This document shows positions 16,648 to 60,458 of a stretch of DNA of 64,000 nucleotides, one piece after another (positions within the stretch are counted from its first letter, which is position 1; each line of letters opens with the position of its first letter). Source of the DNA: Sinohyriopsis cumingii (taxonomy: Eukaryota > Mollusca > Bivalvia > Unionida > Unionidae); assembly GCA_028554795.2 (NCBI GenBank), contig CM068824.1, positions 157,650,789 through 157,714,788 of the forward strand. The letters are read 5' to 3'. The notes under the pieces are model-generated. The model was not told where the DNA came from. It ran no database searches and saw only the letters and a list, made by a program, of their open reading frames with translations. The translations under genes were made by a program, and so were the position numbers.

Positions 16648-16651
16648 AACT

Positions 16652-17420: not shown

Positions 17421-18663
<1,243 letters not shown>

Positions 18664-42975: not shown

Positions 42976-42987
42976 AGTAGTAAGGTG

Positions 42988-43210: not shown

Positions 43211-43324
43211 GGGCTTTTGGGATTTTTTTTTTTTAAATTTTTTTAAATTTAAATTTAAATTTAAATTTAAATTTAAAAAAAGGGTAGGCAATGGAAAGGC
43301 TATCTCTTTTCGAGAAATATGGCT

Positions 43325-43340
43325 GGCCCTGAAAAGGGCC
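43325..43340 (-). terminator. Histone-mRNA-like 3' stem-loop (left TIR)
   Basis: On the minus strand GGCCCTTTTCAGGGCC: a 6-bp stem and TTTC loop, 25 nt beyond the stop of the minus-strand ORF at 43365. It is followed by AGCCA in place of ACCCA and then CTCGAAAAGAG, a purine-rich tract where a U7-type downstream element would lie. Confidence 0.75.
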
Positions 43341-43364
43341 TTTGGGTTTATGTTAATGTATTCA

Positions 43365-43598
43365 TTAACATAAATGGTACCGCATTGGTCTTCTTCTTGT
43401 CCTTAGGCTACGTCTCACTGTTGGTCCGTAAATCAGCACTCTTTTCAGGCATCCTTGTCTTTCAACGTAGATCCTACGTATCCACAGGCTGGTGTTTGTC
43501 CTGTGGACAACGGTCCACTTGGATCGGACATACATGAGCATGTCCGTCCGGAACATCATGGAAGACACAAGCGTAGAAGATTGCACATCGGTCCACAT
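43365..43598 (-). CDS. Small left-arm accessory protein (77 aa), unknown
   Basis: 77 residues, basic (about 15 Arg/Lys), no recognised motif. I accept it because of its signals: a minus-strand TATA box (43641-43651), a leader of about 20-45 nt, the ATG at 43598, and a histone-like hairpin 25 nt after the stop. This is the same gene plan as the right-arm accessory genes. The sequence itself is weak evidence: composition is unusual and the opposite strand also has a short open frame. It would share a divergent promoter region with the gene at 43818. Confidence 0.45.
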   Translation of the reverse strand: MWTDVQSSTLVSSMMFRTDMLMYVRSKWTVVHRTNTSLWIRRIYVERQGCLKRVLIYGPTVRRSLRTRRRPMRYHLC

Positions 43599-43640
43599 CT
43601 TGAAGCGACGAGAACAAGTGAATCAATGCAGTGAACTGCG

Positions 43641-43651
43641 CTTATTTATAG
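43641..43651 (-). promoter_or_regulatory. TATA box for the 43598-43365 gene
   Basis: Minus strand CTATAAATAAG, about 45 nt before the ATG. Confidence 0.6.
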
Positions 43652-43763
43652 GTACAGGAAGGATTGAAACGGATTGAATTCATTCACCAATCCGAACACG
43701 CGTTACAAAATTCAGTCAGCTCGCATCCAATCCGAAGAGAGCAGTCTGTGACGTCACGTGGTC

Positions 43764-43770
43764 TATATAG
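43764..43770 (+). promoter_or_regulatory. TATA box for the 43818 gene
   Basis: TATATAG, 48 nt before the ATG. A CRE/E-box-like TGACGTCACGTGG lies just upstream (43749-43761), a sequence that could bind cellular bZIP or bHLH factors. Confidence 0.65.
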
Positions 43771-43817
43771 ATTCGTTAGCGCTTGTGTGCACTCAATCTA
43801 TGCGACAGTGATTCAAC

Positions 43818-44378
43818 ATGACGGAAACTCAGAAAACGATCCATTGGGGTGCACCAGCAGGGGAGACTGCCCAAGGGAACCCGGACTTACTTTCAGAAGA
43901 GGTACATTGGGATTTTGTGGATTTTCTTACCTCGCAAGAATTTGTTCCAGAACCTTCGTTACCTTCTTCATTACCGCAAGTGGAGAATTTTAGACAGAGA
44001 CAGAAAGAAGAATTGGAGAAATTTATGCAACGACAAAAGGAAGCGGAACAAGCTTTTCTCCTACAGCAACAGCAACAGCAACAAGAAGAGGTAAGAAAAA
44101 AACAACAGCAACAACAGCAAGAAGAAGTAGCAGCAAAGAAACAAGAGGGTGAAAATCAAACGGCTACGGTACTGTTGGACATTTTAGCGGAGTTAAGAAG
44201 TCTGAAACAAATGTATCAGACTTCATTATCACGACCGAAGAGAATACGACCTTCCCGAGCTAAACACGCCAACCCTGTGACTAAGCCTATCGTACCACCC
44301 TTAGTGATTTCAACCCAATCATCAGAAGTAGGCCTTGGCCGTGGCAAAGGCTTAAGGCAGTTAAAGTTGATTGGTTAA
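43818..44378 (+). CDS. Left-arm accessory protein with Gln-rich coiled coil
   Basis: 186 residues. Residues 1-60 are acidic and aromatic (HWDFVDFLTSQEF). Residues 60-115 form a Gln/Glu/Lys coiled coil with poly-Gln runs. A helix LLDILAELRSLKQMY follows, then a basic, proline-rich tail (RPKRIRPSRAKHA) that could be a nuclear localisation signal. I do not recognise the family. It has a TATA box upstream and the best histone-like hairpin of the element 25 nt after its stop, so it is likely expressed as a short non-polyadenylated or S-phase mRNA (inference). Confidence 0.7.
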   Translation: MTETQKTIHWGAPAGETAQGNPDLLSEEVHWDFVDFLTSQEFVPEPSLPSSLPQVENFRQRQKEELEKFMQRQKEAEQAFLLQQQQQQQEEVRKKQQQQQQEEVAAKKQEGENQTATVLLDILAELRSLKQMYQTSLSRPKRIRPSRAKHANPVTKPIVPPLVISTQSSEVGLGRGKGLRQLKLIG

Positions 44379-44403
44379 ACTCACCCCTACACCAAAATAA
44401 AAA

Positions 44404-44424
44404 GGCCCTTTTCAGGGCCACCCA
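44404..44424 (+). terminator. Histone-mRNA-like 3' stem-loop with ACCCA
   Basis: AAA then GGCCCTTTTCAGGGCC then ACCCA: this matches the metazoan histone 3' end consensus (6-bp stem GGYYYT/ARRRCC, 4-nt loop, cleavage after ACCCA). It lies 25 nt after the stop. CTCGAAAAGAAAT follows at 44431-44443 as a candidate U7-paired element. A backup AATAAA lies near 44471. Confidence 0.85.
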
Positions 44425-44669
44425 CATTTCTCGAAAAGAAATACAATTTCAATTTGCCAATAACTCAAAAATAAACCCCACCCATTTTACCTTATAGTAC
44501 GTGTCTGTGTATGAGTGCGTGAGTGTAGCTTCTTATTTTAAAATCAAAACTCAAAGACACTTACCTTATATCATTCATGTATTCTTTTATCCATTTTTTT
44601 ACAATCCAATTCACAATTCACCACAGAACACTTTAATTAAAAGTTCATTGACTTCTTCTTTCTCCTTGT

Positions 44670-45167
44670 TTAGTCTCTCTGTTTTTTGAATTTCTTCACC
44701 GTTTTTTCCTCATTTTCTTCCCTTCTTCTTTTCTTCTCATGTTTCTTTGCTTCTTTTAAATAGAATTGTCTTCTTTCTTCCTCTTCTTCCTCTGAAGAAT
44801 CCCTCTCTTCTTTCGAAGAATCCCTCTCTTCTTCCGAAGAATCCCTCTCTTCTTCTGAAGAATCCTTCTTTTCTTCTGACTCCTCTTGTTTCTTTTTTGG
44901 GCAATCTGGAGACCAATGTCCTTTTTCTTGACAATAATAACAGGTATCTTGATCTTGACTTTTGTCTTTTTTAGCCCCTGTTTTTTTTCTTTTTTGACGG
45001 TCTGGACACTCTGAAGACCAATGCCCTTTCTTCTGACAGATATAGCAAGTATCTTGACTTTTATCTCGAAAGGAAGGAGAGTAGTCCGTCGGCTGGTCTG
45101 AAGAGAATTTTCTAATGACCCCTCGCAAAGCTCTGACGAAACGTTCCATCTGGGTAGTCTCTTCCAT
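44670..45167 (-). CDS. CCHC zinc-knuckle protein
   Basis: 165 residues from the ATG at 45167. A longer frame to 45215 is disfavoured because the TATA box (45222-45232) would leave no leader. Two CX2CX4HX4C knuckles are visible: CYICQKKGHWSSEC and CYYCQEKGHWSPDC, separated by a basic Lys-rich linker. A Glu/Ser repeat (SSEEERD, several copies) and a Lys/Glu helical tail follow. Knuckles of this kind are nucleocapsid or RNA-binding modules of retroelements and cellular CNBP-like proteins; they are not part of the usual Polinton set. It may bind viral ssDNA or RNA. Divergent from the polymerase gene, with 135 nt between the ATGs. Confidence 0.85.
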   Translation of the reverse strand: MEETTQMERFVRALRGVIRKFSSDQPTDYSPSFRDKSQDTCYICQKKGHWSSECPDRQKRKKTGAKKDKSQDQDTCYYCQEKGHWSPDCPKKKQEESEEKKDSSEEERDSSEEERDSSKEERDSSEEEEEERRQFYLKEAKKHEKKRRREENEEKTVKKFKKQRD

Positions 45168-45221
45168 TGCTGTGCTCGGCTTGAGAGTGAAATGAATAGT
45201 GAAAGGACAAGACACACACCC

Positions 45222-45232
45222 TTTTTATATAC
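45222..45232 (-). promoter_or_regulatory. TATA box for the zinc-knuckle gene
   Basis: Minus strand TATATAAAAAG, about 55 nt before the ATG at 45167; it decides the start codon. Confidence 0.75.
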
Positions 45233-45247
45233 GCTGGTTTGCCAAGA

Positions 45248-45256
45248 CTATAAATT
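45248..45256 (+). promoter_or_regulatory. TATA box for the DNA polymerase gene
   Basis: CTATAAATT, about 50 nt before the ATG at 45303; back to back with the TATA box of the zinc-knuckle gene 16 nt away. Confidence 0.7.
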
Positions 45257-45302
45257 AGTCTGTGGTGTTTAAACTTGAGTCATTTGACGTTTTGCACTCA
45301 AG

Positions 45303-48300
45303 ATGAAACGATCCCATTCATTCGAGAAGAAAGAAGAAGAAGTAGAAAGTAAGAGGCAGAAACGTGATCTATCGCCTCGTACCAGGGCTGAAATCTTGGC
45401 ACAAATTCATGCCAGTGATTTTGAAGAGGACATGAGTGAACCAGAATCCGAACCCTCTAAACCAAGTTCACCACCCTTAGTCAACCCTGAAAACTACTAT
45501 TCCATTCGAGAGACGGAAAAGCGCTCCTCTAGAAAATTTAGAACCACGGCTTACACCTACACGGTGAAGTTTAAAGATTTCAAGGCCGACGTACCCTTGG
45601 AGAAAGCAGAAGGGTTTATCACCGAGATGTGGGATTCTTTGCTCACCGCACTCAAGCGACAATGTCAAGCCAAAGAAGACGATCGCTTGACACTATCCAT
45701 AGATCACGACGGTTTGAAATCCCCTGTTTGGATCGAGTTTAGCAGACCCGCAGAACTGACCCCTTCCAAAGTCATGGACAAGATACAACAGGTGCAACAA
45801 TCTAATGACCAGTTTGACATCACCGATGGTAAAGCCACACTGAAAATGGCCCACGTCTCTCCTCCTCAAGGAACTGGATGCAAAAAGATGTTATTGGTGG
45901 ACGACCTTCGCAACACCAAAAAGAGTCTCGTCCGAATTAACAACCCTCAAGACCAGATGTGTTTAGCCCGTGCCATCGTGGTGGGACGAACCTATGCCAA
46001 CAAGAACGACACGGTAGAATGGAAAAGAACCTGGAAAACTATTCAACGATGCGATCGAGCCAAACAACGAAATGAAGCAGAACTCCTGTTGCAACAAGCC
46101 GGACTGTCCAAAGACACACCCTGTGGCATTCCTGAGATGCAAAAATTGCAAGATGCCCTAGCTCCACGCTACACCTTGAAAGTGCACCCTCAAGAAATGC
46201 GTGGAACTCTGTTGTTTCGAGGCCAAGATTGTAAGGACGGAAAATACATTCATGTCTATCATCACGATGACCATTTCGATACCATTACCAGTATCACTGG
46301 ATTCCTGGGATACAGTTATTATTGTGAGAAATGTGACTATGGTTATAACAATCGAGAGCAACACAAGCATTGTGGAATGAAATGCCCAGGATGTTTGGCC
46401 TCTCCACCCTGTCTGAGCGAAGGACCAGTGCCTTGTTCGACTTGTTTGCGCACGTTTGTCAGTCCTACCTGTTACCAACAACATTTGAAAACACAAGGTT
46501 CACAGAAGAAATGTGCTTGTCAACTCCTGAGATTGTGCCCTACCTGTGGACAAGGCATACTTACCAATAATGCCAAGGCACACGTATGTCGAGGAAAGAA
46601 AAAATGTCACATTTGTCACCACATCGTGGACTTGGAACACCAATGCTACATGCAAAAATACCAACCCCCACCAGAGAAAGAGGACGGTCACAAGAAGAAA
46701 GGCAATTTCATCTTTTTCGATTTCGAATGCATGCAAGAGACTGGCATTCACATTCCTAATTTCTGCGTGGCTCATCGAGCGTGCGAGAAGTGCATTCAAG
46801 AACCTATCTTCAGTCATTGCCCTCACTGCAGCAAGATTCCTGGAGGACGTGAAAAAATCTTTCGGGGACCAAACACGTTAGCCGATTTTGCCCAATGGGT
46901 CTTAGACCCCATCGACAAAACGTGGAGCCAAGAGGACATCGAACGTTACGGAGATTGTCATCGTCATGCCACGGTGATGGCTCACAATTTCTCCGGATAC
47001 GATGGACAGTTTCTTCTCAGATACTATACGGAACAAGGCACCGAACATCCTAAAGTGACTTTGAACGGAGCCAAAATCATTTTCATGCAAGTGGGACAAG
47101 TACAGTTTAAAGATTCGATGAGTTACTTGGCCATGCCTTTGAGTCGAATGCCTAAAACGTTTGGAATGACAGAAATGGCTAAAGGGTACTTTCCACACTT
47201 TTTCAATACGGAAGCCAATCAACATGCCGTTCTACCCCATTTGCCTGAGGCTCACTATTACGACCCCGACAACATGCGTACCGAACAACGAGAAGCTTTC
47301 TACGCTTGGTACCAGGCTCATGCCTCTGACCCCTTCGACTTTCAGGAAGAAATGCTAAAGTATTGTCGTTCCGACGTGGACATTTTACGGCGTTGCTGTG
47401 GAAAATTTCGAGAACTGTTCATGGAACACGGAGGGGTCGATCCTTTGAAAGAAGCTTGCACCATTGCCAAAGCGTGTTCCTTAGTGTACCGCCAACGATT
47501 CATGCCTGAAAACACCGTGGCTGTCATCAGTCCTCAAACGACCCACTGTGTCAAGCGTCAATACTCGGTCAAAGCCCTACGTTGGTTACATTACTTGTGC
47601 GACAAGGAAGACAAATGGATTCAGCATGCCCGCAACGGAGGAGGCGAAAAGACCATCGGAACGTATTCGGTCGATGGCTGGGACTTAGAAAACCCCAAGA
47701 TCGTGTACGAGTTTAACGGTTGCTTATTTCACGGATGTCCCGTCTGCTACCCTGACCGTGACACTAAAAATCAGTTTTTGCAACGAACCATGGAAGACTT
47801 GTACCAGGACACTTGTCAGCGACGCCTAAAGTTAGAACAGGAAGGATACCAAGTGGTGGAAATGTGGGAACACGAGTACGATCACCGTTTGAAAACCGAT
47901 CCCGAGTTTAAACGCCTCGTGGAAAGTTACCAGTTCATGGACCCGCTGAACCCGAGGGATAGTTTGTACGGAGGAAGGACCAATGCCACCTGTTTGCTGT
48001 ACCAAGCCGACGAAGAGAAAGGAAAAGAAATCAAATACTTGGACGTGTGTTCGCTGTATCCCTACGTGTGCAAATATTGTCGCTTTCCTGTAGGGCACCC
48101 GCAATTGTTGACGGAACACATCGACCTGAAAAACATTCGAGAATACGAAGGCTTGATCAAGTGTAAAGTTTTGCCTCCCACGAACCTATACCATCCCGTC
48201 TTACCTCACCATTGTCAAGGCAAACTGATGTTTCCCTTGTGCCGTACTTGTGCCGAAACGTGCAACCAGGACCAACCTTGCCATCACAGCCAGGAAGAAC

Positions 48301-49370
48301 GTGCCTTGACGGGAACCTGGGTCAGCGTGGAATTGTTCAAAGCTCTGGATATGGGATACCAACTGTTAGAAGTGTACGAAATTTGCCACTTTCCCAAGAC
48401 ACAACAGTACCACAAGGGTGACCCCAGTCAGAAAGGCATTTTCGCCGACTACGTGGATGCCTTTTTGAAACTGAAACAAGAAGCCAGCGGCTATCCTTCC
48501 TGGTGTCACACTCCCGAAGACCAAATACATTTCAAAGAGAAATACTATGCACAAGAAGGCATCTCTTTAGACCACATCGAAAAAAACGAAGGCAGGCGAT
48601 CGTTTGCCAAAGTGATGTTAAATTGCTTGTGGGGTAAAATGGCACAACGACCGTGTTTACCCAAGACGGAATATTTGACAGAACGTTTCCGCTACTTCCA
48701 GATGATTCACGACAAAACCAAATACATGAAACACGTGGACGTCGTTCGAGAGGATTTGATCTTGGTCAATTACGAAGAAGATCTGGACTTTGTACAAGAC
48801 GACCCTTTTGGAAATGTCATCATTGCGGCTTACGTGACAGCTCATGCTCGCTTAAAATTGTATGAAGCTTTAGAACTGTTAGAAGAACGCGTCCTGTACT
48901 TTGACACGGACAGTTGCATTTACATCCATCACCCGATTCAACATCACCCTGACATCGAAGGAGACCGTTTAGGAACCTGGACAGACGAGCATCCCGACGA
49001 CAAGATTCTAAGTTTCGTCAGTGGCGGCCCCAAAAATTACGGCTACGAATACCGGGACAAACAAGGAGAAGTGCACACGACGTGCAAAGTGAAAGGACTG
49101 ACTCTGAATCATCGTACCAGTCGAGTGGTCAACTTTGGGGTATTGAAAGAAGCCTTGCAATCGGGAGAGGATGGAAACTTTAAAGTGACCACCTATCAAC
49201 CGAACAAGATTGTACGTTTACCCACTCACCACATCGTCAGTCGACCCTTGGAAAAAGTCTATCAAATTGTATACCAGAAGCGAGTGCGACTTCCCAATCA
49301 CTTCACCTTACCGTACGGTCACGTCGGTATTGGTCTGTATATAAAAAGGAACCCTAGGCAAGATCGATAG
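45303..49370 (+). CDS. Protein-primed family-B DNA polymerase (DNA_pol_B_2)
   Basis: 1355 residues, intact. The N-terminal 330 residues are lineage-specific with a basic start (KRSHSFEKK...KRQKR). A Cys/His-rich block (about 345-445, many CxxC) follows. The exonuclease has FIFFDFEC (about 470), HNFSGYDGQF (about 561) and YCRSDVDIL (about 686). The polymerase has DVCSLYP (motif A, about 913), KVMLNCLWGK (motif B, about 1102) and YFDTDSC (motif C, about 1198), then KVKGLTLN. A YGGRTNA segment before motif A is typical of the protein-primed branch used by Polintons and adenoviruses. It should copy the element from its TIR ends. The promoter of the next gene lies within its last codons. Confidence 0.96.
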   Translation: MKRSHSFEKKEEEVESKRQKRDLSPRTRAEILAQIHASDFEEDMSEPESEPSKPSSPPLVNPENYYSIRETEKRSSRKFRTTAYTYTVKFKDFKADVPLEKAEGFITEMWDSLLTALKRQCQAKEDDRLTLSIDHDGLKSPVWIEFSRPAELTPSKVMDKIQQVQQSNDQFDITDGKATLKMAHVSPPQGTGCKKMLLVDDLRNTKKSLVRINNPQDQMCLARAIVVGRTYANKNDTVEWKRTWKTIQRCDRAKQRNEAELLLQQAGLSKDTPCGIPEMQKLQDALAPRYTLKVHPQEMRGTLLFRGQDCKDGKYIHVYHHDDHFDTITSITGFLGYSYYCEKCDYGYNNREQHKHCGMKCPGCLASPPCLSEGPVPCSTCLRTFVSPTCYQQHLKTQGSQKKCACQLLRLCPTCGQGILTNNAKAHVCRGKKKCHICHHIVDLEHQCYMQKYQPPPEKEDGHKKKGNFIFFDFECMQETGIHIPNFCVAHRACEKCIQEPIFSHCPHCSKIPGGREKIFRGPNTLADFAQWVLDPIDKTWSQEDIERYGDCHRHATVMAHNFSGYDGQFLLRYYTEQGTEHPKVTLNGAKIIFMQVGQVQFKDSMSYLAMPLSRMPKTFGMTEMAKGYFPHFFNTEANQHAVLPHLPEAHYYDPDNMRTEQREAFYAWYQAHASDPFDFQEEMLKYCRSDVDILRRCCGKFRELFMEHGGVDPLKEACTIAKACSLVYRQRFMPENTVAVISPQTTHCVKRQYSVKALRWLHYLCDKEDKWIQHARNGGGEKTIGTYSVDGWDLENPKIVYEFNGCLFHGCPVCYPDRDTKNQFLQRTMEDLYQDTCQRRLKLEQEGYQVVEMWEHEYDHRLKTDPEFKRLVESYQFMDPLNPRDSLYGGRTNATCLLYQADEEKGKEIKYLDVCSLYPYVCKYCRFPVGHPQLLTEHIDLKNIREYEGLIKCKVLPPTNLYHPVLPHHCQGKLMFPLCRTCAETCNQDQPCHHSQEERALTGTWVSVELFKALDMGYQLLEVYEICHFPKTQQYHKGDPSQKGIFADYVDAFLKLKQEASGYPSWCHTPEDQIHFKEKYYAQEGISLDHIEKNEGRRSFAKVMLNCLWGKMAQRPCLPKTEYLTERFRYFQMIHDKTKYMKHVDVVREDLILVNYEEDLDFVQDDPFGNVIIAAYVTAHARLKLYEALELLEERVLYFDTDSCIYIHHPIQHHPDIEGDRLGTWTDEHPDDKILSFVSGGPKNYGYEYRDKQGEVHTTCKVKGLTLNHRTSRVVNFGVLKEALQSGEDGNFKVTTYQPNKIVRLPTHHIVSRPLEKVYQIVYQKRVRLPNHFTLPYGHVGIGLYIKRNPRQDR
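49338..49347 (+). promoter_or_regulatory. TATA box inside the end of the polymerase ORF
   Basis: TATATAAAAA, 59 nt before the ATG at 49397. It encodes polymerase residues in one frame and serves as promoter for the next gene. Confidence 0.75.
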
Positions 49371-49396
49371 TTCATTGTTCATTGAAGTAACTTACC

Positions 49397-49782
49397 ATGT
49401 CGTTGACGAAGAAGAAACCAGATTGGTTAGGAGTCAAATGTTGGACATCACCGAGACCAGGGTTTTGAGGCTTGGACACAAGAGGTAGCCCAGTATGCAC
49501 GAGAGTTATTCAAGGAAAAAAGTTACTTTTCAACCCGTGTTAGTGACGGTGCCAGAAGAACCCGTCACCCAGGACAGGACTGTCGTGGACAGGCCTGAAA
49601 GACCCTTTCGGGAGGACACTTGTGTGACCTTACCCCCTACTATAGAACTGGTTAGAACTTTACCCAAAACATGTTGTACAGACACTTGTGTTTATTCCAC
49701 GTTCATGGTTATCATGTGCCTTTTATTCTTGTACTTAAGCCGTTGGCTTTTATGTATTTTTGTCTTTCGTATTCATGTTTGA
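49397..49782 (+). pseudogene. Small tail-anchored membrane protein, reading frame probably disrupted
   Basis: The first ATG after the TATA box (49397, context ACCATG) opens a 23-codon frame ending at 49468. Protein-like sequence continues in a second frame (FEAWTQEVAQYARELF) and then in a third frame from 49495, a 95-residue ORF with a Pro/Glu/Val region (PVLVTVPEEPVT) and one C-terminal hydrophobic helix of about 25 residues (STFMVIMCLLFLYLSRWLL). I read this as one small membrane protein of about 125-130 residues with two frameshifts; alternatively the 95-residue ORF is used alone. AATAAA at 49794 ends the transcript. Function unknown. Confidence 0.5.
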
Positions 49783-49793
49783 AAAAAAACATT

Positions 49794-49799
49794 CAATAA
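49794..49799 (+). terminator. Poly(A) signal
   Basis: AATAAA 12 nt after the stop at 49782 and 17 nt before the next TATA box. Confidence 0.7.
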
Positions 49800-49815
49800 A
49801 CGTGTTCTGAAAAAG

Positions 49816-49824
49816 TATATAAAC
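49816..49824 (+). promoter_or_regulatory. TATA box for the packaging ATPase gene
   Basis: TATATAAAC, 55 nt before the ATG at 49871; this excludes the upstream in-frame start at 49832. Confidence 0.75.
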
Positions 49825-49870
49825 TCTTGTCTTGTTTGTTTTTCGTGTCACAAGTGACATTTCTCACACC

Positions 49871-50614
49871 ATGGCTACCTCTGCTGTCTCTGTTCCCTCT
49901 TCCTCTACTGTCAAAGTCATCGACGAACACTTAGATCGTGCCAGTTGGGAGGCTTTGTATCTTCGCCATCCCTTTAACATGCTCATTGCTGGACCTAGCG
50001 GTTCAGGCAAAACCGAATTCGTTAAACGTTTGATCGAACATAAACATCATTTGATCGATCGACCCCCTCAACGAATCGTGTGGTGTTACAAAGAGTGGCA
50101 ATCGGCGTACAGCCTCTTGCGAGAAAGTCAAGGCGATTCCATCGTGTTTGTGGAAGGCATTCCTAAAGAAGACGATGGCATCGTCTCTGACTCCCGTCTA
50201 ACCCATTTGGTCATTTTTGACGACATGTTAGGAGAAGACGAAGAAGAAATTAAACTGTGGTTCACGCGCAAAGGGCATCACCGTAATGCCAGTGTCGTTT
50301 ACATCACCCAAAATTTGTTTCAACAAAGTAAAGCCCATCGCACCATCAGTCTCAATGCGCATTACGTGGTCTTGTTTAAAAGCCCTCGAGATAAATCGCA
50401 AGTGCAAGTCTTAGCCAAACAGTTAGGAACGCCTTGGCTGACTCAGGCGTACGACGATGCCACTCAAACTCCACACGCCTATTTACTCGTCGATTTGAAA
50501 CCTACGACCCCCGAGGATTTGCGATTTCGTACCCACTTGTTTCACCACTGGTGCCAAGACGGAGGGCCTGTCCTGTACACGTCTCCGTCCTCGACTTCAT
50601 TTCACTCCCCATAA
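49871..50614 (+). CDS. A32/FtsK-HerA-type DNA-packaging ATPase
   Basis: 247 residues from the TATA-supported ATG. Walker A is GPSGSGKTEF (41-50) and Walker B is HLVIFDDML (112-120). FTRKGHHRNASVVYITQNLF carries the conserved Arg/Gln sensor region, and SLNAHYVVLFKSPRDKSQV the following strand, in the order typical of Polinton ATPases. It would drive genome packaging. Intact. Followed 8 nt later by the TATA box of the next gene, so there is no room for a separate 3' region. Confidence 0.95.
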   Translation: MATSAVSVPSSSTVKVIDEHLDRASWEALYLRHPFNMLIAGPSGSGKTEFVKRLIEHKHHLIDRPPQRIVWCYKEWQSAYSLLRESQGDSIVFVEGIPKEDDGIVSDSRLTHLVIFDDMLGEDEEEIKLWFTRKGHHRNASVVYITQNLFQQSKAHRTISLNAHYVVLFKSPRDKSQVQVLAKQLGTPWLTQAYDDATQTPHAYLLVDLKPTTPEDLRFRTHLFHHWCQDGGPVLYTSPSSTSFHSP

Positions 50615-50621
50615 AAAAATC

Positions 50622-50630
50622 TATAAAAAC
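50622..50630 (+). promoter_or_regulatory. TATA box for the 50670 gene
   Basis: TATAAAAAC, 48 nt before the ATG. Confidence 0.75.
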
Positions 50631-50669
50631 CTCAGACCCTTTTTCGTCTGTCTCACTCTCAGTGCGAAC

Positions 50670-51584: not shown

Positions 51585-51588
51585 AAAA
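51580..51588 (+). promoter_or_regulatory. TATA box overlapping the preceding stop codon
   Basis: TATAAAAAA; the TAA at 51582-51584 is the stop of the 50670 gene. 66 nt before the ATG at 51646. Confidence 0.75.
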
Positions 51589-51645
51589 GGCCTGTGACCA
51601 AGTCGGGTATCAGTGTTTTTTTTTTGTGCTCCTGAAGACTCAAAG

Positions 51646-52032: not shown

Positions 52033-52038
52033 AAAGGC
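52029..52038 (+). promoter_or_regulatory. TATA-like box overlapping the preceding stop codon
   Basis: GATAAAAAGG contains the TAA stop of the previous gene; about 50 nt before the ATG at 52081. First base deviates from TATA. Confidence 0.55.
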
Positions 52039-52080
52039 CTCGGAAGTTCCAAGATCTCAGAATCGACCCCTGAGAACCCC

Positions 52081-52716: not shown

Positions 52717-52738
52717 CACACCAACCAACACAAAAAAA

Positions 52739-53848: not shown

Positions 53849-53853
53849 CCATC

Positions 53854-54270
53854 ATGCCTTTTCACACAGCAGACGCAGCTACGTCGACAACTCCTCCTTC
53901 CCCTAGTTCTTCTGTGCAAGATTTACAAAAACAACCCTTGTGGGTGTGGTGTGGAGAACGTGTGCCTAAAACGCAAATCGTCTTTTTCTGCCAAATCTTC
54001 GTGGTGTATTGTGTCATCGGGGCAGCCATCGCCAATTTGAGTTTGCAACAAGGAGACAAACAATTGTGGACCATTTTATTGAGCAGTTGCATCGGTTACC
54101 TGCTTCCTAATCCCTCCCTGAAATTCACCTCGAACGGGAACCATGGGAACCTTGTGTCCAGTGCCAGTGCCAGTCACCACTTCAATCACAACCAGAACCC
54201 CATTTTGGGCGGAGACACGCCTCTGACGTCCACTAACCCCTCGGACAGCCACAGAACTCTGGAATTATGA
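53854..54270 (+). CDS. Conserved Polinton membrane protein (two TM helices)
   Basis: 138 residues from the ATG at 53854; the frame opens upstream only at a GTG. A Ser/Thr/Pro-rich start leads to PLWVWCGERVPKTQIVFFCQIFVVYCVIGAAIANLSL (first TM) and LWTILLSSCIGYLLPNPSLK (second TM). A polar Ser/Asn/His tail follows. This two-helix signature occurs in Polintons from many animals; function unknown, perhaps a virion membrane or holin-like protein. TATAAAAAG inside the chromodomain end (53834) is too close to this ATG to be its promoter, so it is probably co-transcribed. Its TGA overlaps the penton ATG (ATGA). Confidence 0.78.
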   Translation: MPFHTADAATSTTPPSPSSSVQDLQKQPLWVWCGERVPKTQIVFFCQIFVVYCVIGAAIANLSLQQGDKQLWTILLSSCIGYLLPNPSLKFTSNGNHGNLVSSASASHHFNHNQNPILGGDTPLTSTNPSDSHRTLEL

Positions 54271-55190
54271 GTCACCAAAACCAATTTTACTTAACCTTAC
54301 CCAGTGACAGTTCCATGGAGGTGTTTCCCAAGAACACGTTGTGCTGTTACACGGCCAAATTACCTCAAGCCATCCCCTTAGATCACGAAGCCCATTGGGA
54401 AGTCGCTTTAGTAGAAATGATTCACCCGACCCAAGTCCTCAATGTCCTTCCCAATCAAAATTGTTTTGATGTGGAAGTTCATGACGAACAATTGCAACAG
54501 TGGATGGATAGCAATGTCAAATATGACAAGAAAACCCGTACACAAAAGTACACCACCTATCACTTGTTCATTTCCCCAGGCTATTATTTTAGTGGTCAAC
54601 ATTTGGTCAGCACCATAGCCTCCAGGTTTAATGCCGTGTTTCTGAAAGCTTTGGAGCATGTCAACAAAAGTGTCACCATGGAGTACCACAAAACAGCTCG
54701 TCGCTTCTTGATGAAATTTGAACGGAGTAAAATCCTGTCCATTTTATTTTGTCCTGAATTGTATGACATGTTGGGCGGAGACATGAACCTGAGAATGAGC
54801 ATGATGAAGAAAAGCGAATTACCCATCGTTTACGACAACGAGTCTTTTAGCAAGTTATTTCGTGCCCCGGTAGAACTGAACCAAGGACTGAATTTGATGT
54901 TTGTGTACTCCGATGTGGTGGAGTATAACGTGGTGGGACACACCTCCGTACCGTTACTGCCTGTCATTCCTTTCAAAGTGGATTCTGCCACGAACACTGA
55001 CGAGGAAGGTGGAAACACTTACCATGTCCACCGCGAATTTGTACATCCTCACTATTTGCCTGTCAGTAAGTCGTATTTGGACACGGTCAACATTACTATA
55101 AAAGGAGATTTGGGACAAAATATTCCATTCACCAAAGGAAAAGTCACGGTGAAACTCCATTTTCGAAAACGGTTTTCTCACGATTCGTAA
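54267..55190 (+). CDS. Minor capsid (penton-like, single jelly-roll) protein
   Basis: 307 residues. It opens with FYLTLPSDSSMEVFPKNTL and HWEVALVEMIHP, then ISPGYYFSGQHLVSTI, and the C-terminal half has VYSDVVEYNVVGHTSVPLLPVIPF. These are the conserved blocks of the Polinton minor capsid protein that forms the capsid vertices. The start overlaps the previous stop by 4 nt (ATGA), so both may be made from one mRNA. Intact. Confidence 0.88.
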   Translation: MSHQNQFYLTLPSDSSMEVFPKNTLCCYTAKLPQAIPLDHEAHWEVALVEMIHPTQVLNVLPNQNCFDVEVHDEQLQQWMDSNVKYDKKTRTQKYTTYHLFISPGYYFSGQHLVSTIASRFNAVFLKALEHVNKSVTMEYHKTARRFLMKFERSKILSILFCPELYDMLGGDMNLRMSMMKKSELPIVYDNESFSKLFRAPVELNQGLNLMFVYSDVVEYNVVGHTSVPLLPVIPFKVDSATNTDEEGGNTYHVHREFVHPHYLPVSKSYLDTVNITIKGDLGQNIPFTKGKVTVKLHFRKRFSHDS

Positions 55191-55193
55191 GTC

Positions 55194-55618
55194 ATGTATC
55201 CAGTGTACCGAGGGGTTGCTCGACAGCGAGGACACGGTTTAGGAGATATGTTAAAATCGGCCTTTCGTTCGGTGGCCCGGTGTTGAAACCGATGGTGACA
55301 CGCGGATTGCACGCCTTGAAAGATGCGGAACTGACGCAAGGCAAAGAATTTCTCCAAAATGTCATCATCGACAAACAAAACCCTAAAGAAGCCTTCATGA
55401 GGGCAGGCAAAAATGTCTTGCTGCAAACGGGCAAAGACATTTTGGGTCACCGAGAAACACCTATAAATGCCCTGCACGCTACCGAGTCAGGCATTCAGCA
55501 AGGACAAGGCAGAAAGAGACGACGAAGAAAACACCCTTTCACCAGACTTGACACTTCTAAAGCTAGAAAGGCAAAGAAAAGAAGAACCGTTCGAGACTTA
55601 GACGTTTTCGATTATTGA
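55194..55618 (+). pseudogene. Minor virion protein (pVI/pX-like), frameshifted
   Basis: The ATG at 55194, 3 nt after the penton stop, opens YPVYRGVARQRGHGLGDMLKSAF and hits TGA at 55284-55286. The protein continues in another frame from about 55280 (PMVTRGLHALKDAELTQ), which has no ATG at its start, to a basic C-terminus RKRRRRKHPF and TVRDLDVFDY at 55618. A single-nucleotide loss near 55270-55283 explains both. RGHGLG is the usual start of the Polinton/adintovirus capsid-associated protein and may include a maturation cleavage site; in this element no protease is visible. As read, the product would be a 30-residue peptide. Confidence 0.75.
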
Positions 55619-55634
55619 GAAAAGAGACAAAAAA

Positions 55635-56948
55635 ATGATGTACCGAGAATCTTGCGCTTGTTCCAAGACTGAACTGGATCCGTTTGCCATGCCCCCCACG
55701 ATGATGACGATGCAAGAATCCCAGTGGGTGGAATTTCACCCCGTCTCCTCACTGACCGATTCCGCTCCCATCGAGTTTGAAATCAAAGGACAGCCCGAAG
55801 ATTACATCGATCTGAATAGCAGTTACTTGTACCTGAAAGTCAAAATTCTAGATAAGACTGGAGGTGCTATAGACGATGAAGCAGTAGCTCCCGTCAACAA
55901 TTTCATGCATTCCTTGTTCAGTGGAGTGGACTTGTACTTGAATAACAAACTGGTCAGTAGCAGCATGGATACTTACCCTTATCGTGCCTACCTGGAAAAT
56001 CTCTTGACGTACGGAATAGATGCCAAGAACACTCATCTCAATGCCTGTGTGGTATGGGAAGCTGACGAACCTACCAAGTTTGAAATATTGGAAACTGATG
56101 AAAAGAAAGACAACAATGATGGATTTCTAGAACGAAGAAAGAGAATCACGGGAGCCGACACAAGTTTAGAACTGATGGATCGTTTGCATTTGGACATGTG
56201 GTTGCAAGAAAAGTATTTGCTGAACGGGGTGGATGTCCGCCTGAGACTGAATCGTAGCAGTGCCGCTTTCCATTTGATGGCTGATAGTGACGGTTACAAA
56301 ACCAAAATCCTAGAAGCCAGACTCTACGTACGCCGTGTGGAAGTGTTACCTAAAGTGGGAAACGACATCAGTCAGACGTTGAGCAGAACGACCGCCAAGT
56401 ATCCCATACGACGCGTGGAAGTGAAAACCTTCACCATTCCCAAGGGACAGCGATCCATGATCGAAGATCATCTGTTCCAAGGACAGTTACCCAAACGTTT
56501 GATCGTTGGTATCGTCGAGAATACAGCCTTCAACGGAGCTGCCGAAAAAAATCCTTTCTACTTTCAACACTTTGGTGTGTCCAAAATCGAAGTCAGTCGC
56601 GATGGCAAGACCTTGTGTACCCGACCTTTCGAACCTGACTTTACCAAGAAGAATTACTTGAGATCGTACTTGTCCCTGTACGAAGCCACCGGACAGTTAG
56701 GAACCAACACCAGTCACGGTATTACGTACGAGGATTATGCAGGAGGCTACGCTTTGTGGGCTTTCGATTTCACTCCAGACCAAGGCAGCGACGAGGGACA
56801 TTTCCACCCTATAAAATCCGGCCAGATTCGTGTGGAAATTCAGTTTAAAGACCGAGACCCTGATGAAACGGTGAACGTCATCCTGTATGCAGAATTCGAT
56901 AATACGATAGAAATCAACAGTTTGAGAGAAGTCATCCTAGATTACTAG
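55635..56948 (+). CDS. Major capsid protein (double jelly-roll, hexon-like)
   Basis: 437 residues, intact. Typical Polinton blocks: PIEFEIKGQPEDYIDLNSSYLYLKVKI, then NNFMHSLFSGVDLYLNNKLVSS and TYPYRAYLENLLTYG. The second half has RRVEVKTFTIPKG and SLYEATGQLGTN...HGITYEDY. It ends GQIRVEIQFKDRDPDETVNVILYAEFDNTIEI. This is the trimeric capsid building block of the virion-forming Polintons. It starts 17 nt after the minor virion gene. It is the last core gene before the accessory array. Confidence 0.95.
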   Translation: MMYRESCACSKTELDPFAMPPTMMTMQESQWVEFHPVSSLTDSAPIEFEIKGQPEDYIDLNSSYLYLKVKILDKTGGAIDDEAVAPVNNFMHSLFSGVDLYLNNKLVSSSMDTYPYRAYLENLLTYGIDAKNTHLNACVVWEADEPTKFEILETDEKKDNNDGFLERRKRITGADTSLELMDRLHLDMWLQEKYLLNGVDVRLRLNRSSAAFHLMADSDGYKTKILEARLYVRRVEVLPKVGNDISQTLSRTTAKYPIRRVEVKTFTIPKGQRSMIEDHLFQGQLPKRLIVGIVENTAFNGAAEKNPFYFQHFGVSKIEVSRDGKTLCTRPFEPDFTKKNYLRSYLSLYEATGQLGTNTSHGITYEDYAGGYALWAFDFTPDQGSDEGHFHPIKSGQIRVEIQFKDRDPDETVNVILYAEFDNTIEINSLREVILDY

Positions 56949-56997
56949 AAACCATGGAAGACTGTTATCCCTCTTTACCTAGTGAAGAAACTTTTAG

Positions 56998-57187
56998 TGT
57001 TGGATTATTGTTAAAAAATGTTAGAGTTGTTGTTGTTTAGTGTTAAGTGATTTTTGAATAAAAAATGTTGTGTTTTGAAAAAATTGTTTGATGTTATATT
57101 GTTGGATTATTGTTAAAAATGTTAGAGTTGTTGTTTAGTGTTAAGTGATTTTTGAATAAAAAATGTTGTGTTTTGAAAAAAAATGCC
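56998..57187 (+). repeat. 102-bp tandem duplication carrying poly(A) signals
   Basis: Units start at 56998 and 57100 (TGTTGGATTATTG) and each contains TTTTTGAATAAAAAATG. AATAAA lies at 57057 and 57155, so the capsid mRNA has two consecutive poly(A) signals. Confidence 0.85.
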
Positions 57188-57288
57188 TTTGTCTTTTGTT
57201 TAGCTATAAGAATGTTGGATTGATGCTCTTTCATTTCTTAATATCCCTCTCATGACACTCACTAAACGTTGCGACTCAAAAACCGTGT

Positions 57289-57331
57289 GGGGGATGTTTT
57301 CCTTCACGTCTGCGCTTTGACTTTAAGAACC
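57289..57331 (+). promoter_or_regulatory. Shared accessory promoter, copy 1
   Basis: GGATGTTTTC, TCACGTCTGCGCTTT and the TATA-position string CTTTAAGAACC; 51 nt before the ATG at 57382. The TATA is degenerate here. Confidence 0.65.
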
Positions 57332-57381
57332 GGGGTTGTTTCCAGTCTAACCATCCATTGTCGACTCATCCTCCTACGAAG

Positions 57382-57738
57382 ATGTGCTCCAAACTAGCTA
57401 AACTCAACGAAGCCTACGTGAATTTGCATAGGGTCAGACACAGTCTGATACCGAAGCCAGAAGAAATAGAGAATGTGAGAATGCTAAAAATCACTGAAGA
57501 CCTGATAGAAGAGCTCTTCAGAGAAGAAATGAACAGGGAAAAAGAAGAATGGACAGAGAAGTACAGACTTCAGAGACAGCAGCAACAACAACAACAAGAG
57601 CAGCAGCAGCAACCTGAAGCTGACAGAGGCTTTGTCGATTGTCGTATCGACACCAAAGAGTTCTTCTTCTCTTTCCGAAGAAGCAGACCTATCGCCAGAA
57701 AGTCTATCCTCAGAGGACATCGCATTCTTAGAAACTAA
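57382..57738 (+). CDS. Right-arm accessory protein 1 (helical, Gln-rich)
   Basis: 118 residues from the ATG at 57382, chosen because the promoter leaves about 50 nt of leader. The N-terminal 60 residues are helical (KLAKLNEAYVNLHRVRHSL, ITEDLIEELFREEM), then a Gln-rich run, then a basic tail RRSRPIARKSILRGHR. The start resembles accessory protein 2 (LxxLxxxxVxLxxxRxxL), so the two may be diverged duplicates. Not a known family. The stop lies 30 nt before a histone-like hairpin. Confidence 0.7.
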   Translation: MCSKLAKLNEAYVNLHRVRHSLIPKPEEIENVRMLKITEDLIEELFREEMNREKEEWTEKYRLQRQQQQQQQEQQQQPEADRGFVDCRIDTKEFFFSFRRSRPIARKSILRGHRILRN

Positions 57739-57768
57739 AAAGAATGCCATAGCAAACAAAAAAAAACC

Positions 57769-57789
57769 AGCCCTTTTCAGGGCTACCCA
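57769..57789 (+). terminator. Histone-mRNA-like 3' stem-loop with ACCCA
   Basis: AGCCCTTTTCAGGGCT then ACCCA; the outer pair is A-T instead of G-C (a compensated change). CTCTAGAAAAGAAAT follows, and AATAAA near 57848. Confidence 0.8.
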
Positions 57790-58140
57790 ATACTCTAGAA
57801 AAGAAATAACAATCGATTTGCCAATGTGTGTAGGTAGAGTAGTGTGAAAATAAACACTAACTCTTTTTTAAAAAATGTGAGGGTATGTGTTTGTGTGTTT
57901 GTGTTTGTAAGTGGTTAAGTAAGTTGGTATGGATAGTAGATTAAAATGATGTCTTTTTTGGTGTTTGAGGTGTATATTTGGAGTTAGATTGGATTGCTTT
58001 GCGTATGTGGATAGTCTATTGAAGTGATTTATAAAAAATTTTAAAATAGTGATGGGTAGCATAAAAAAGTGAGTGAGTGTTTCTTTTAGGTCGGCGCGTT
58101 GTTTTATGGTCATGATCTAGGTAAGATCAATTTTATGTTT
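57790..58140. other. Spacer between accessory genes 1 and 2
   Basis: Starts with a segment shared with 58663-58800 (TTTGCCAATGTGTGTAGGTA, then GTGAGGGTATGTGTTTGTG), so the cassettes were duplicated with their 3' flanks. No gene. Confidence 0.7.
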
Positions 58141-58144
58141 TTTA

Positions 58145-58185
58145 GGGGATGTTTTCGTTCACGTCCGCGCTTTCACTATAAATTG
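58145..58185 (+). promoter_or_regulatory. Shared accessory promoter, copy 2
   Basis: GGGGATGTTTTC, TTCACGTCCGCGCTTTCAC and TATAAATT; about 55 nt before the ATG at 58235. The upstream string GGTCATGATCTAGGTAA recurs at 59352. Confidence 0.8.
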
Positions 58186-58234
58186 AAACTCGTTCGGCAG
58201 TCCAGCTACCCTTGTTGATTGATCAACACCAAAA

Positions 58235-58612
58235 ATGAACACGAGACTGGAGAAACTGTTGGAACTTCATGTGCATCTGGAATATGCCAGGCGCATATTA
58301 AATGAACTGGCCGCGGAAGCCATTGTGGAGGAGGGAAGGATAAGAGAGGAGGAGGAAAGAAGAAACAAAGAAGAGGAGGAGAGAAGATATAAAGAAGAAG
58401 AGGAAAGAAGATACAAAGAGGAGGAGAGAAGATACAAAGAAGAGGAGGAGGAGGAAAAGGAGAGAAGAAGAAGAAATTTCAGAATCCCAGAGAGCGAAAA
58501 TTGGGATTCTGAAGCGACATATCCTGCCTCTGCTCTCTCCCCCAAAAAGGTAAAAAGTAACTGGGGGACAAGATGTGTATGTGGCGCCAGGCCTGGAAGG
58601 TGCCACCATTAA
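58235..58612 (+). CDS. Right-arm accessory protein 2 (Glu/Arg-rich coiled coil)
   Basis: 125 residues. A helical start (LEKLLELHVHLEYARRILNELA) similar to accessory protein 1 leads to a repetitive coiled coil of (R)RYKEEEE units (about residues 38-80). A serine/proline stretch follows and a short Cys tail CVCGARPGRC. I do not recognise the family. The repeat region is prone to slippage. TATA box and a hairpin 29 nt after the stop mark it as one cassette of the array. Confidence 0.68.
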   Translation: MNTRLEKLLELHVHLEYARRILNELAAEAIVEEGRIREEEERRNKEEEERRYKEEEERRYKEEERRYKEEEEEEKERRRRNFRIPESENWDSEATYPASALSPKKVKSNWGTRCVCGARPGRCHH

Positions 58613-58641
58613 CCAGGTGTCCATGAAGTTCCAAAAAAAAC

Positions 58642-58662
58642 AGCCCTTTTCAGGGCTACCCA
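58642..58662 (+). terminator. Histone-mRNA-like 3' stem-loop with ACCCA
   Basis: AGCCCTTTTCAGGGCT then ACCCA, then CTCTAGAAAAGAAAT: almost identical to 57769-57805. No AATAAA in the equivalent downstream place (ATTATAAAC instead). Confidence 0.8.
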
Positions 58663-58794
58663 ATACTCTAGAAAAGAAATAACGATCGATTTGCCAATGT
58701 GTGTAGGTAGAGTAGTGTGATTATAAACACGAACTCTTTTTTAAGAGAGTGTGAGGGTATGTGTTTGTGTGTTGGTGCTTGTAAGAGCTAAGGT

Positions 58795-59300
58795 ATGTTT
58801 GTGGGAATAGTAGATTATGGGTTTCTTTATTGTTTCTTAGCGTAGGTGAAGAGTATAGTTAGGGTTCTGTAAGCGCTCACGTATGATTGTGTGGATAGTA
58901 GATTATGGATTTTGTTTATTGTTTCTTAGCGTATGTGGAGAGTATAGTTGGGGTTTTGTAAGCGCTCACGTACGATTGTGTGGATAGTAGATTATGGATT
59001 TTGTTTATTGTTTCTTAGCGTATGTGGAGAGTATAGTTAGGGTTTTGTAAGCGCTCACGTACGATTGTGTGGATAGTAGATTATGGATTTTGTTTATTGT
59101 TTCTTAGCGTATGTGGAGAGTATAGTTGGGGTTTTGTAAGCGCTCACGTACGATTGTGTGGATAGTAGATTATGGATTTTGTTTTAATGATTTGCGTGTG
59201 TAAATAGTAGATTTGGGGTTTGTTTATTGTTGCTTAGCGTAGGTGGAGAGTATAGTTAGGGTTTTGTAAGCGCTCACGTACGATTGTGTGGATAGTATAT
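58795..59300. repeat. 89-bp tandem repeats between accessory genes 2 and 3
   Basis: GCGCTCACGTA(C/T)GATTG recurs at 58873, 58962, 59051, 59140 and 59270; the first four are exactly 89 bp apart. Each unit contains GTGGATAGTAGATTATGG and TTTCTTAGCGTA. No gene. Confidence 0.92.
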
Positions 59301-59323
59301 TATATGAAATGAGAAAAGTAGGG

Positions 59324-59430
59324 ATGTTTTCTTTCACGTCTGCACGATGTTAGGTCATGATCTAGGTAATATCAATTTTATGTTTTAGGGGGATGTTTTC
59401 CATCACGTCCGCGCTTTCACTATAAGAACC
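59324..59430 (+). promoter_or_regulatory. Shared accessory promoter, copy 3 (with a partial extra copy)
   Basis: A partial copy (GGATGTTTTC, TTCACGTCTGC) at 59322-59345 has no TATA. The complete copy at 59387-59430 has GGGGATGTTTTC, TCACGTCCGCGCTTTCAC and TATAAGAACC, 57 nt before the ATG at 59478. Confidence 0.8.
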
Positions 59431-59477
59431 CACAAAGTTTGATGTTGGAACCATTCTAAGGAATAACTGAGACAAAA

Positions 59478-60068
59478 ATGACTCAAGTATCAGTTCTATT
59501 TAATTTATTGAGAGACATCTATTTCTGGATAATGGATGTAGAATATGTTTTAGGAAGAATAGAAGAGGAATGGAGGCATGGAGATATGAAAGACTTTGTA
59601 ACGAGTCAAGTTCAAGGCCTAAAGACAGCAAGAGATATCATAGCAGGGATGATTGAAGAAGTCAGTAAGTCAAGAGGCTTCATTAACCCACCTTACTTCA
59701 GAGTGGGAAGTTTGAAGGAAGCACTGGATCATGTCATCCAAGTCCGGTGCTTCCTAGAAAAAATATTGTACTGGACAGAGTGGAGAAATGTAAAATGGGG
59801 ATTGGAAAAGGTGAAGAAAGGGGAAGATCTGATGAGAAAAGTAATGGAGGAAGAAGTAGAGAAGATTAAAGTGAAATGGAGGGAAGAAAGAAAAGATGTG
59901 GAAAGCAAAAAGAAACAGACAGAGTTTGAGAGGATGAATGAGAATTGGATCAAAGTCCAGGAAAAGTTTAGAGCCTTGGGCCATCCAGACTGGATGCCAG
60001 AGGAGAAAAAGAAGAAGAAAGGAATAATGGAAAAAGTGAGGACTTGGTGGAAGAAGTTAAGGAGTTAG
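59478..60068 (+). CDS. Right-arm accessory protein 3 (helical)
   Basis: 196 residues, predicted all-helical. The N-terminal 115 residues are folded-looking (LFNLLRDIYFWIMDVEYVLGRIEEEW, LKTARDIIAGMIEEV, YFRVGSLKEALDHVIQ). A charged Lys/Glu helix follows (about 115-160), ending with a basic tail KKKKKGIMEKVRTWWKKLRS that could bind DNA or membranes. No family recognised. It has the full shared promoter, and the TIR hairpin lies 28 nt after its stop, so its 3' end is made within the TIR. Confidence 0.7.
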   Translation: MTQVSVLFNLLRDIYFWIMDVEYVLGRIEEEWRHGDMKDFVTSQVQGLKTARDIIAGMIEEVSKSRGFINPPYFRVGSLKEALDHVIQVRCFLEKILYWTEWRNVKWGLEKVKKGEDLMRKVMEEEVEKIKVKWREERKDVESKKKQTEFERMNENWIKVQEKFRALGHPDWMPEEKKKKKGIMEKVRTWWKKLRS

Positions 60069-60086
60069 AAGAAGAAGAAGAAGAAG

Positions 60087-60452
60087 AAACCCAAAGGCCC
60101 TTTTCAGGGCCAGACATATTTCTCGAAAAGAGATAGCCTTTCCATTGCCTACCCTTTTTTTAAATTTAAATTTAAGTTTAAATTTAAAAAAATTTTTAAA
60201 AAAAATCCCAAAAGCCCAAACTCTATTCCCCATGTTAATTTCCCCTTGTCGCTAGACAGACCCACACTATAGTTCCATGTTAAATTCCCCTTGTCGCTAG
60301 AGTGACCCACGATTTTTCTCCATGTTAATTTCCCTTGTCGCTAATCTGACCCACGATTTTTCGCCATGTTAAATTTCCCTTGTCGCTAATCTGACCCAGG
60401 GGTCTCTGTAATGCTAATTCCCATTGTCGCTAATGTACCCCACCTTACTACT
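60087..60452. repeat. Right terminal inverted repeat of element 2
   Basis: Reverse complement of 42976-43349; contains the hairpin at its inner edge, an AT tract and the five 45-bp units, and ends CCTTACTACT. Confidence 0.95.
60096..60111 (+). terminator. Histone-mRNA-like 3' stem-loop (right TIR)
   Basis: AAA then GGCCCTTTTCAGGGCC, followed by AGACA rather than ACCCA, then CTCGAAAAGAGAT. It serves accessory gene 3, whose stop lies 28 nt upstream. Confidence 0.78.
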
Positions 60453-60458
60453 ATCATG
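60453..60458. repeat. Right target-site duplication of element 2 (ATCATG)
   Basis: Perfect match to 42970-42975. Confidence 0.92.

Follow-up and report, generated by a model that had tools for sequence, protein, structure and literature searches.

In a family of Polinton elements in the genome of the mollusc Sinohyriopsis cumingii, the accessory genes very probably mimic replication-dependent histone genes in their expression, to judge from the signals that flank them. The copy analyzed in most detail is a 17.5-kb element in a stretch of contig CM068824.1 with a length of 64 kb (positions 157,650,789 to 157,714,788, forward strand; hereafter referred to as the window, to which the coordinates below refer). 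All five accessory genes of this element, designated G77m, A1, A2, A3 and A4, have histone-type 3' ends, and three of them (A2, A3 and A4) are histone-type units at both ends, i.e., they also carry histone-type promoter elements. Signals of this kind suggest that the accessory genes are probably switched on while the host cell copies its DNA. It also seems likely that these genes, as histone mimics with H2B/H1 and H4 promoter elements and the U7/SLBP 3' code, are run by the host histone programme and that the code has spread to approx. 10,000 places, far outnumbering the 3' ends of the histone arrays seen. Histone-type 3' ends are known almost exclusively from replication-dependent histone genes, and we know of no Polinton described with histone-type promoters or 3' ends.

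Histone-type 3' ends of the accessory genes

The five accessory genes (all identified as open reading frames, ORFs) and their 3' ends, with scores against the Rfam covariance model RF00032 (Histone3), are located as follows.

43365..43598, minus strand: accessory gene G77m, 77 aa
43300..43345, minus strand: histone-type 3' end of G77m within the left terminal repeat (hairpin 43325-43340, AGCCA, purine tract; 35.6 bits)
43818..44378, plus strand: accessory gene A1, 186 aa
44399..44443, plus strand: histone-type 3' end of A1 (hairpin 44404-44419, ACCCA, GAAAAGA; 41.2 bits)
57382..57738, plus strand: accessory gene A2, 118 aa
57764..57809, plus strand: histone-type 3' end of A2 (hairpin 57769-57784, ACCCA, GAAAAGA; 29.9 bits, below the cut-off)
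58235..58612, plus strand: accessory gene A3, 125 aa
58637..58682, plus strand: histone-type 3' end of A3 (hairpin 58642-58657, ACCCA, GAAAAGA; 31.0 bits, below the cut-off)
59478..60068, plus strand: accessory gene A4, 196 aa, predicted helical bundle (model with a mean predicted local distance difference test score, pLDDT, of 76)
60091..60136, plus strand: histone-type 3' end of A4 within the right terminal repeat (hairpin 60096-60111, AGACA, purine tract; 35.0 bits)

An initial annotation of the window had reported five copies of a 16-nt hairpin with a 6-bp stem and a TTTC loop, and all five are present where it had placed them (43325 on the minus strand, 44404, 57769, 58642 and 60096); these are the only perfect hairpins of this form in the whole window. 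As a permissive scan of the window with the histone consensus found 3 matches vs. 1.28 expected by chance, a loose consensus scan is weak if taken alone. The RF00032 model, which scores structure and flanks together and has a cut-off of 34 bits, matched all five hairpins (41.2, 35.6, 35.0, 31.0 and 29.9 bits; E-values from 3e-9 to 5.3e-5); three of the five exceeded the cut-off, while the scores of 31.0 and 29.9 bits fall short of it. No Histone3 matches were found in positions 1-42500 of the window up to E = 1.

Each hairpin follows a stop codon on the same strand at a distance of 24, 25, 27, 29 or 30 nt, as compared to the 25-35 nt reported initially. ACCCA directly follows three of the five hairpins, as had been claimed, with AGCCA and AGACA instead in the terminal-repeat pair. 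The purine tract of the GAAAAGA type, which had been described downstream of all five, begins (as GAAAAG) 13 nt past each hairpin. The five copies, although all real, are not independent, as they represent three lineages: the hairpins at 43325 (minus strand) and 60096 (plus strand) are two copies of one terminal inverted repeat, those at 57769 and 58642 sit in a 112-nt duplication with 96% identity, and the one after A1 stands alone. Similarly, the A-T/G-C compensated outer pair noted in the initial annotation is real but is found in only one lineage within this element.

Comparison with the histone genes of the host

For comparison we used five stretches of approx. 10 kb of host sequence, covering H1, H2A, H2B, H3 and H4. 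Among 150 scored histone matches, 105 tie at the top score, and all of these lie on H3 of a tandem array with a unit of approx. 8.3 kb. The named protein that comes closest to the host H1 is from Mytilus. The host hairpins are GGCCCTTTTTAGGGCC for H3 and H4, GGCCCTTTTAAGGGCC for H2A, GGCCCTTTTCAGGGCC for H2B and GGTCCTTTTCAGGACC for H1; they are located 27-38 nt after the stop codon, and GAAAAG begins 13 or 14 nt further on. The comparison proposed in the initial annotation thus yielded the same hairpin type with the same spacing of the purine tract (+13 or +14), and the H2B hairpin is identical to the Polinton hairpin at all 16 nt. The position occupied by ACCCA varies in host histone genes too (e.g., ACACA, ATACA). 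As the Polinton ends share the sequence features that mark host histone ends, we infer that they would be processed in the same way. With regard to the donor of the 3' end, hairpin identity points to H2B, while downstream z-scores point to H3 (3 of 4 groups) or H2A (1 of 4).

A second conserved stretch, about CAATTTGCC, occurs approx. 30 nt (+30 to +32) past many Polinton hairpins. Similar stretches, CAATTTTG(C/T), are found 3' of the host H2A and H2B hairpins, with the host H4 end listed alongside. This stretch may extend the pairing with U7 or represent another processing signal.

Promoter elements of host histone type

A 24-nt box, GATGTTTTC(C/A)ATCACGTCCGCGCT, is common to host H2B and H1 and starts 107 (H2B) and 105 (H1) nt before the ATG. 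The same box is present before A2, A3 and A4 (2, 1 and 0 mismatches, respectively), where it starts 86-89 nt before the ATG, and A3 also has an H4-type element.

57293..57316, plus strand: H2B/H1-type promoter box of A2, 2 mismatches
58080..58100, plus strand: H4-type promoter element of A3, 1 mismatch to host H4
58148..58171, plus strand: H2B/H1-type promoter box of A3, 1 mismatch
59323..59346, plus strand: degenerate second box before A4, 4 mismatches
59392..59415, plus strand: promoter box of A4, identical to the host H2B box

No further box matches were found in the window at up to 6 mismatches, and ten shuffled windows showed 0 matches at up to 5 mismatches and a mean of 0.1 at up to 6. 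The box is absent upstream of A1, G77m and the genes for the DNA polymerase (PolB), the zinc-knuckle (CCHC) protein, the ATPase and the putative capsid protein; it was also not found in six Polinton-like loci from metagenome-assembled genome (MAG) records. The 21-nt H4 element, TTTCTTTTAGGTCCGCGCGTT, is located upstream of A3 and is identical to the host H4 promoter in four family loci (L006, L011, L024 and L025); the window, L026 and L028 each differ from it at one position. If up to 6 mismatches are allowed, the pattern also matches H2B-type boxes and approx. 1.6 chance places per shuffled window. The distances from box to hairpin (476, 494 and 704 nt for A2, A3 and A4, respectively) are similar to those in host H2B (519 nt) and H1 (740 nt). 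Overall, the presence of host histone promoter elements on A2, A3 and A4 supports a coupling of these genes to the histone programme. HINFP is a candidate reader of the box core CGTCCGC, which resembles the HINFP site; a literature search gave no direct support for this assignment.

A 34-nt repeat, GGTCATGATCTAGGTA..., is found at 58108-58141 and 59353-59386 (97% identical), between the promoter elements of A3 and between those of A4, and recurs after such promoter elements in other family copies.

Conservation in the family and selection

A Histone3 search of the genome, in which 75 matches were scored from 589,472 first-look candidates, led to 28 loci that were read, and genes of this Polinton family are found near the Histone3 match in all 28. 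Together with the window element, these loci yielded 67 histone-type hairpins, i.e., 42 with the sequence GGCCCTTTTCAGGGCC and 14 with AGCCCTTTTCAGGGCT; the remaining 11 are variants with a single change, which leaves a mispair in some. ACCCA follows 53 of the 67 hairpins, and 65 have the purine tract at +13. As the loci were chosen by hairpin score and the hairpins were gathered by pattern, a fairer count is that of gene ends that were located by protein and whose hairpin had not led to the choice of the locus. Among these accessory-gene ends, 35 of 36 have kept the hairpin (G77m 8/9, A1 11/11, A2 4/4, A3 11/11 and A4 1/1), as compared to 0/2 for ends of the CCHC gene and 0/1 for the putative capsid gene. 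The 35 hairpins include 28 with perfect stems, 6 with five pairs and 1 weaker one (in an A2 copy); the tract is at +13 in 33 and ACCCA is present in 23. Even A3 copies with as little as 41% protein identity still have the hairpin.

The accessory proteins are under purifying selection, as seen from ratios of nonsynonymous to synonymous substitution rates (dN/dS) computed for copies with intact frames only, from pairs that are not independent. Median dN/dS was 0.12 for G77m (median dS 0.99; 151 pairs, 18 intact copies), 0.44 for A1 (0.075; 36 pairs, 9 copies), 0.35 for A2 (0.134; 6 pairs, 4 copies), 0.20 for A3 (0.69; 21 pairs, 7 copies) and 0.25 for A4 (0.97; 10 pairs, 5 copies). In one copy (L013:899-1546) the A4 frame reads on through the hairpin, a case of decay.

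Genome-wide frequency of hairpins and boxes

Exact patterns were counted in the 2.9-Gb genome, with positions available for the first 100 places of each pattern. The GG-type hairpin followed by ACCCA, GGCCCTTTTCAGGGCCACCCA, occurs at 13,559 places and the AG-type hairpin followed by ACCCA, AGCCCTTTTCAGGGCTACCCA, at 14,907 (28,466 exact 21-nt matches together), whereas the reversed control patterns gave 0 for both. The box pattern occurs at 31,520 places, histone arrays included, again with 0 for the reversed control. On contig C1, the first 6.7 Mb contain 43 listed GG-type hairpins, 40 of which are within 20 kb of a box (random expectation 10.0), and 55 listed AG-type hairpins, 50 of which have a box within 2 kb upstream on the same strand, with none on the opposite strand; for 45 of these 50, the box is located 350-550 nt upstream. 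The 100 listed boxes fall into 41 clusters, which by extrapolation indicates right-end blocks (copies or remnants) in the order of 10,000 for the genome. Overall, the covariance model, the comparison with host genes, the conservation at gene ends and the genome-wide counts with their controls support the claim of the initial annotation that the element appears to use the histone 3' processing code.

In the same 6.7 Mb, many copies show approx. 16 kb from a GG-type hairpin to the next box cluster, as compared to 12.9 kb in the window (A1 hairpin to A2 box); typical copies may thus be longer than the window copy.

Proposed mode of expression and alternative explanations

Processing of histone 3' ends involves pairing of the 5' end of the U7 small nuclear RNA (snRNA) with the downstream element, binding of SLBP to the stem-loop and cutting between them by CPSF73, as described in an excerpt of PMC7026596. 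The right-end genes A2, A3 and A4 are compact units, each consisting of a host-type histone promoter box, a short ORF and a histone 3' end, which the histone transcription programme of the host would activate around S phase. The left-end genes G77m and A1 are arranged divergently and differ in their promoter region, and they also have histone 3' ends. SLBP would bind the hairpin, and the U7 small nuclear ribonucleoprotein would pair with the GAAAAG(A) tract 13 nt downstream; cleavage between the two, typically after ACCCA, would give capped mRNAs without poly(A) that would be translated during DNA replication and decay afterwards. The accessory proteins would thereby be made when the replication machinery of the host is present, presumably to the benefit of the element. 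In this proposal the 3' signals suggest histone-type processing for all five genes, and the promoter elements suggest use of the histone transcription programme for A2, A3 and A4 as well.

Several observations weigh against this proposal. The hairpin is lost in one G77m copy (L033), and as all copies are relatives, the counts given above do not represent independent events. G77m and A1 do not have the H2B/H1 promoter box, and the terminal-repeat hairpins of the window are not followed by ACCCA. AATAAA occurs 8 nt 5' of the A1 hairpin (44396) as well as 3' of the A1 (44470) and A2 (57849) hairpins, so polyadenylation is possible as an alternative or backup. A search for the host U7 snRNA with Rfam found none among the 65 candidates scored out of 801,960; a first U7 pattern gave 60 matches vs. 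141 in the reversed control, with none of the 18 matches that were read being U7-like over the cut-off (best score 21.0 bits vs. a cut-off of 34), and a looser pattern gave 325 matches vs. 337 in the control. A family search for SLBP in the host gave no match, although this search had no working positive control and is uninformative. Finally, Histone3 was not found in five Polinton-like contigs from bacterial MAG records (five of six loci, L017 being excluded; several are partial). With regard to U7, the best complement to the purine tract, at C13:13576000-13576240 (L075), was rejected as a candidate, as we read its sequence as a Polinton 3' end in antisense that has decayed. Among the first 100 matches of the looser pattern, one at C5:110521528 is a possible U7 candidate with a likeness to the sea-urchin form.

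An alternative that we consider possible, though rather doubtful, is that the element uses its histone 3' ends for expression outside S phase, in the oocyte or the early embryo with their stored, stable histone-type mRNAs, so that it would exploit the germ line and not the cell cycle. A germ-line niche would suit an inherited element, and oocyte histone mRNAs need stabilising independently of the cell cycle, according to an excerpt of PMC12803260; the finding that three genes carry promoter elements of two kinds of host histone gene, on the other hand, points to the whole histone programme. A passive origin, in which an ancestor copied regulatory DNA of host histone genes and the signals have persisted unneeded through recent amplification, appears improbable. 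It would fit a single family in one genome in which all copies are related, the high copy number and the median dS of only 0.075 and 0.134 for A1 and A2. Copies of A3, A4 and G77m, however, have diverged to a median dS of 0.69-0.99 and have still kept the hairpins and the tract spacing, the trait is common to five genes with different proteins, in sense orientation and at a fixed distance from the stop codon, and the compensated outer pair AG..CT occurs as often as GG..CC.

A role at the DNA level is less probable still. Hairpin and box would in this case be binding or replication sites of the element (for transposition or terminal replication) with only a secondary likeness to histone genes, and two of the hairpins are located where the terminal inverted repeats end on their inner side; the other three are internal, every hairpin is in sense 24-30 nt past a stop codon, the purine tract has the spacing of host histone genes, and the boxes precede genes in the same orientation. 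Chance or ordinary hairpins, to which the non-significant result of the loose consensus scan might point, are ruled out for practical purposes by the RF00032 E-values and by the 28,466 genome matches vs. 0 for the reversed patterns. We favor expression of the accessory genes as histone mimics.

Distribution of the trait and relation to known systems

The expectation that the hairpin is kept in related elements held for the family, where nearly all accessory-gene ends located by protein have it, but not for the five Polinton-like MAG contigs. As far as seen, the trait therefore belongs to this lineage, and a histone 3' end as a general Polinton feature is not supported by these contigs. Searches of public viral contigs with PolB and major capsid protein queries found no confirmed relatives. 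Five public viral contigs that matched the stem-loop and ACCCA pattern have one shared sequence without the purine tract and were judged to be chance matches; a stricter hairpin pattern gave no match in public viral contigs. Among titles and abstract openings in one literature collection, no report of Polintons with a histone stem-loop was found.

The Polinton units resemble replication-dependent histone genes (RF00032, SLBP/U7) in the hairpin, the mostly present ACCCA, the tract at host spacing and the short single-ORF layout, and, for three genes only, in the H2B/H1 and H4 promoter elements; they differ in their products, which are lineage-specific small proteins of a mobile element and not histones. 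Like other Polintons/Mavericks (adintovirus-like), the window element has terminal repeats, a 6-bp target duplication, PolB, an rve integrase, an A32-like ATPase and a putative capsid gene, and it differs by the histone-type hairpin, which the five related contigs do not have. Some small DNA viruses depend on host S phase, tying viral gene expression or replication to it; the element described here differs in that it carries the cis-acting code of histone genes itself.

A histone 3' code on five genes with different proteins in a selfish element, with promoter elements on three, would represent a clear case of regulatory capture. It would serve as a natural experiment on the cis signals that are sufficient for histone-type expression and would indicate how the genes of a Polinton may be timed in an animal host. 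It would also raise the question of whether the histone supply of the host suffers from many thousands of additional histone signals. If the proposal is true, the element-borne copies could compete for SLBP, U7 or factors of the histone locus body.

Other features of the element and the window

Long terminal inverted repeats, a 6-bp target duplication, a type B polymerase, an rve integrase and an A32/FtsK-like ATPase mark the element as a Polinton.

42976..60452, plus strand: Polinton element, 17.5 kb, terminal inverted repeats AGTAGT...ACTACT (defined by inverted arms and ends)
42970..42975: left target-site duplication, ATCATG, 6 bp
60453..60458: right target-site duplication, ATCATG, 6 bp
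44670..45167, minus strand: zinc-knuckle (CCHC) gene without histone hairpin (PF00098)
45303..49370, plus strand: predicted protein-primed type B DNA polymerase, PolB (PF03175, E = 4e-42; type by family match)
49871..50614, plus strand: A32/FtsK-like packaging ATPase (PF04665, E = 1.3e-7)
52739..53545, plus strand: rve integrase (PF00665)
53627-53848: chromodomain ORF adjoining the integrase (PF00385)
55635..56948, plus strand: putative major capsid protein gene without histone hairpin (labelled by position)

The terminal inverted repeats span 42976-43349 and 60087-60452; their arms are 100% identical at 42976-43230/60198-60452 and 98% identical at 43248-43349/60087-60188. The 437-aa protein at 55635, putatively the major capsid protein by its position, had no match in Pfam; a search found 1017 homologues, of which the best with a name come from bivalves (Mercenaria, Saccostrea, Crassostrea and Ostrea), and the same gene neighbourhood is found in family copy L014. 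AATAAA is located downstream of this gene at 57057 and 57155. The proteins of A1-A4 and G77m matched no Pfam family above its cut-off, and no histone family. The A4 protein has two homologues in a large protein set, and its predicted helical bundle had no match in the PDB at E <= 0.001. Between A3 and A4, an 89-nt tandem repeat is present in five copies (58733-59266).

Elsewhere in the window, a second dense block of ORFs (2188-17626), apparently another virus-like element, contains no Histone3 match; it encodes a double jelly-roll-like capsid protein (4127-5530, PF21738) and an AAA helicase-like protein (11579-13993). A reverse transcriptase ORF (PF00078) is located at 664-1821 on the minus strand.

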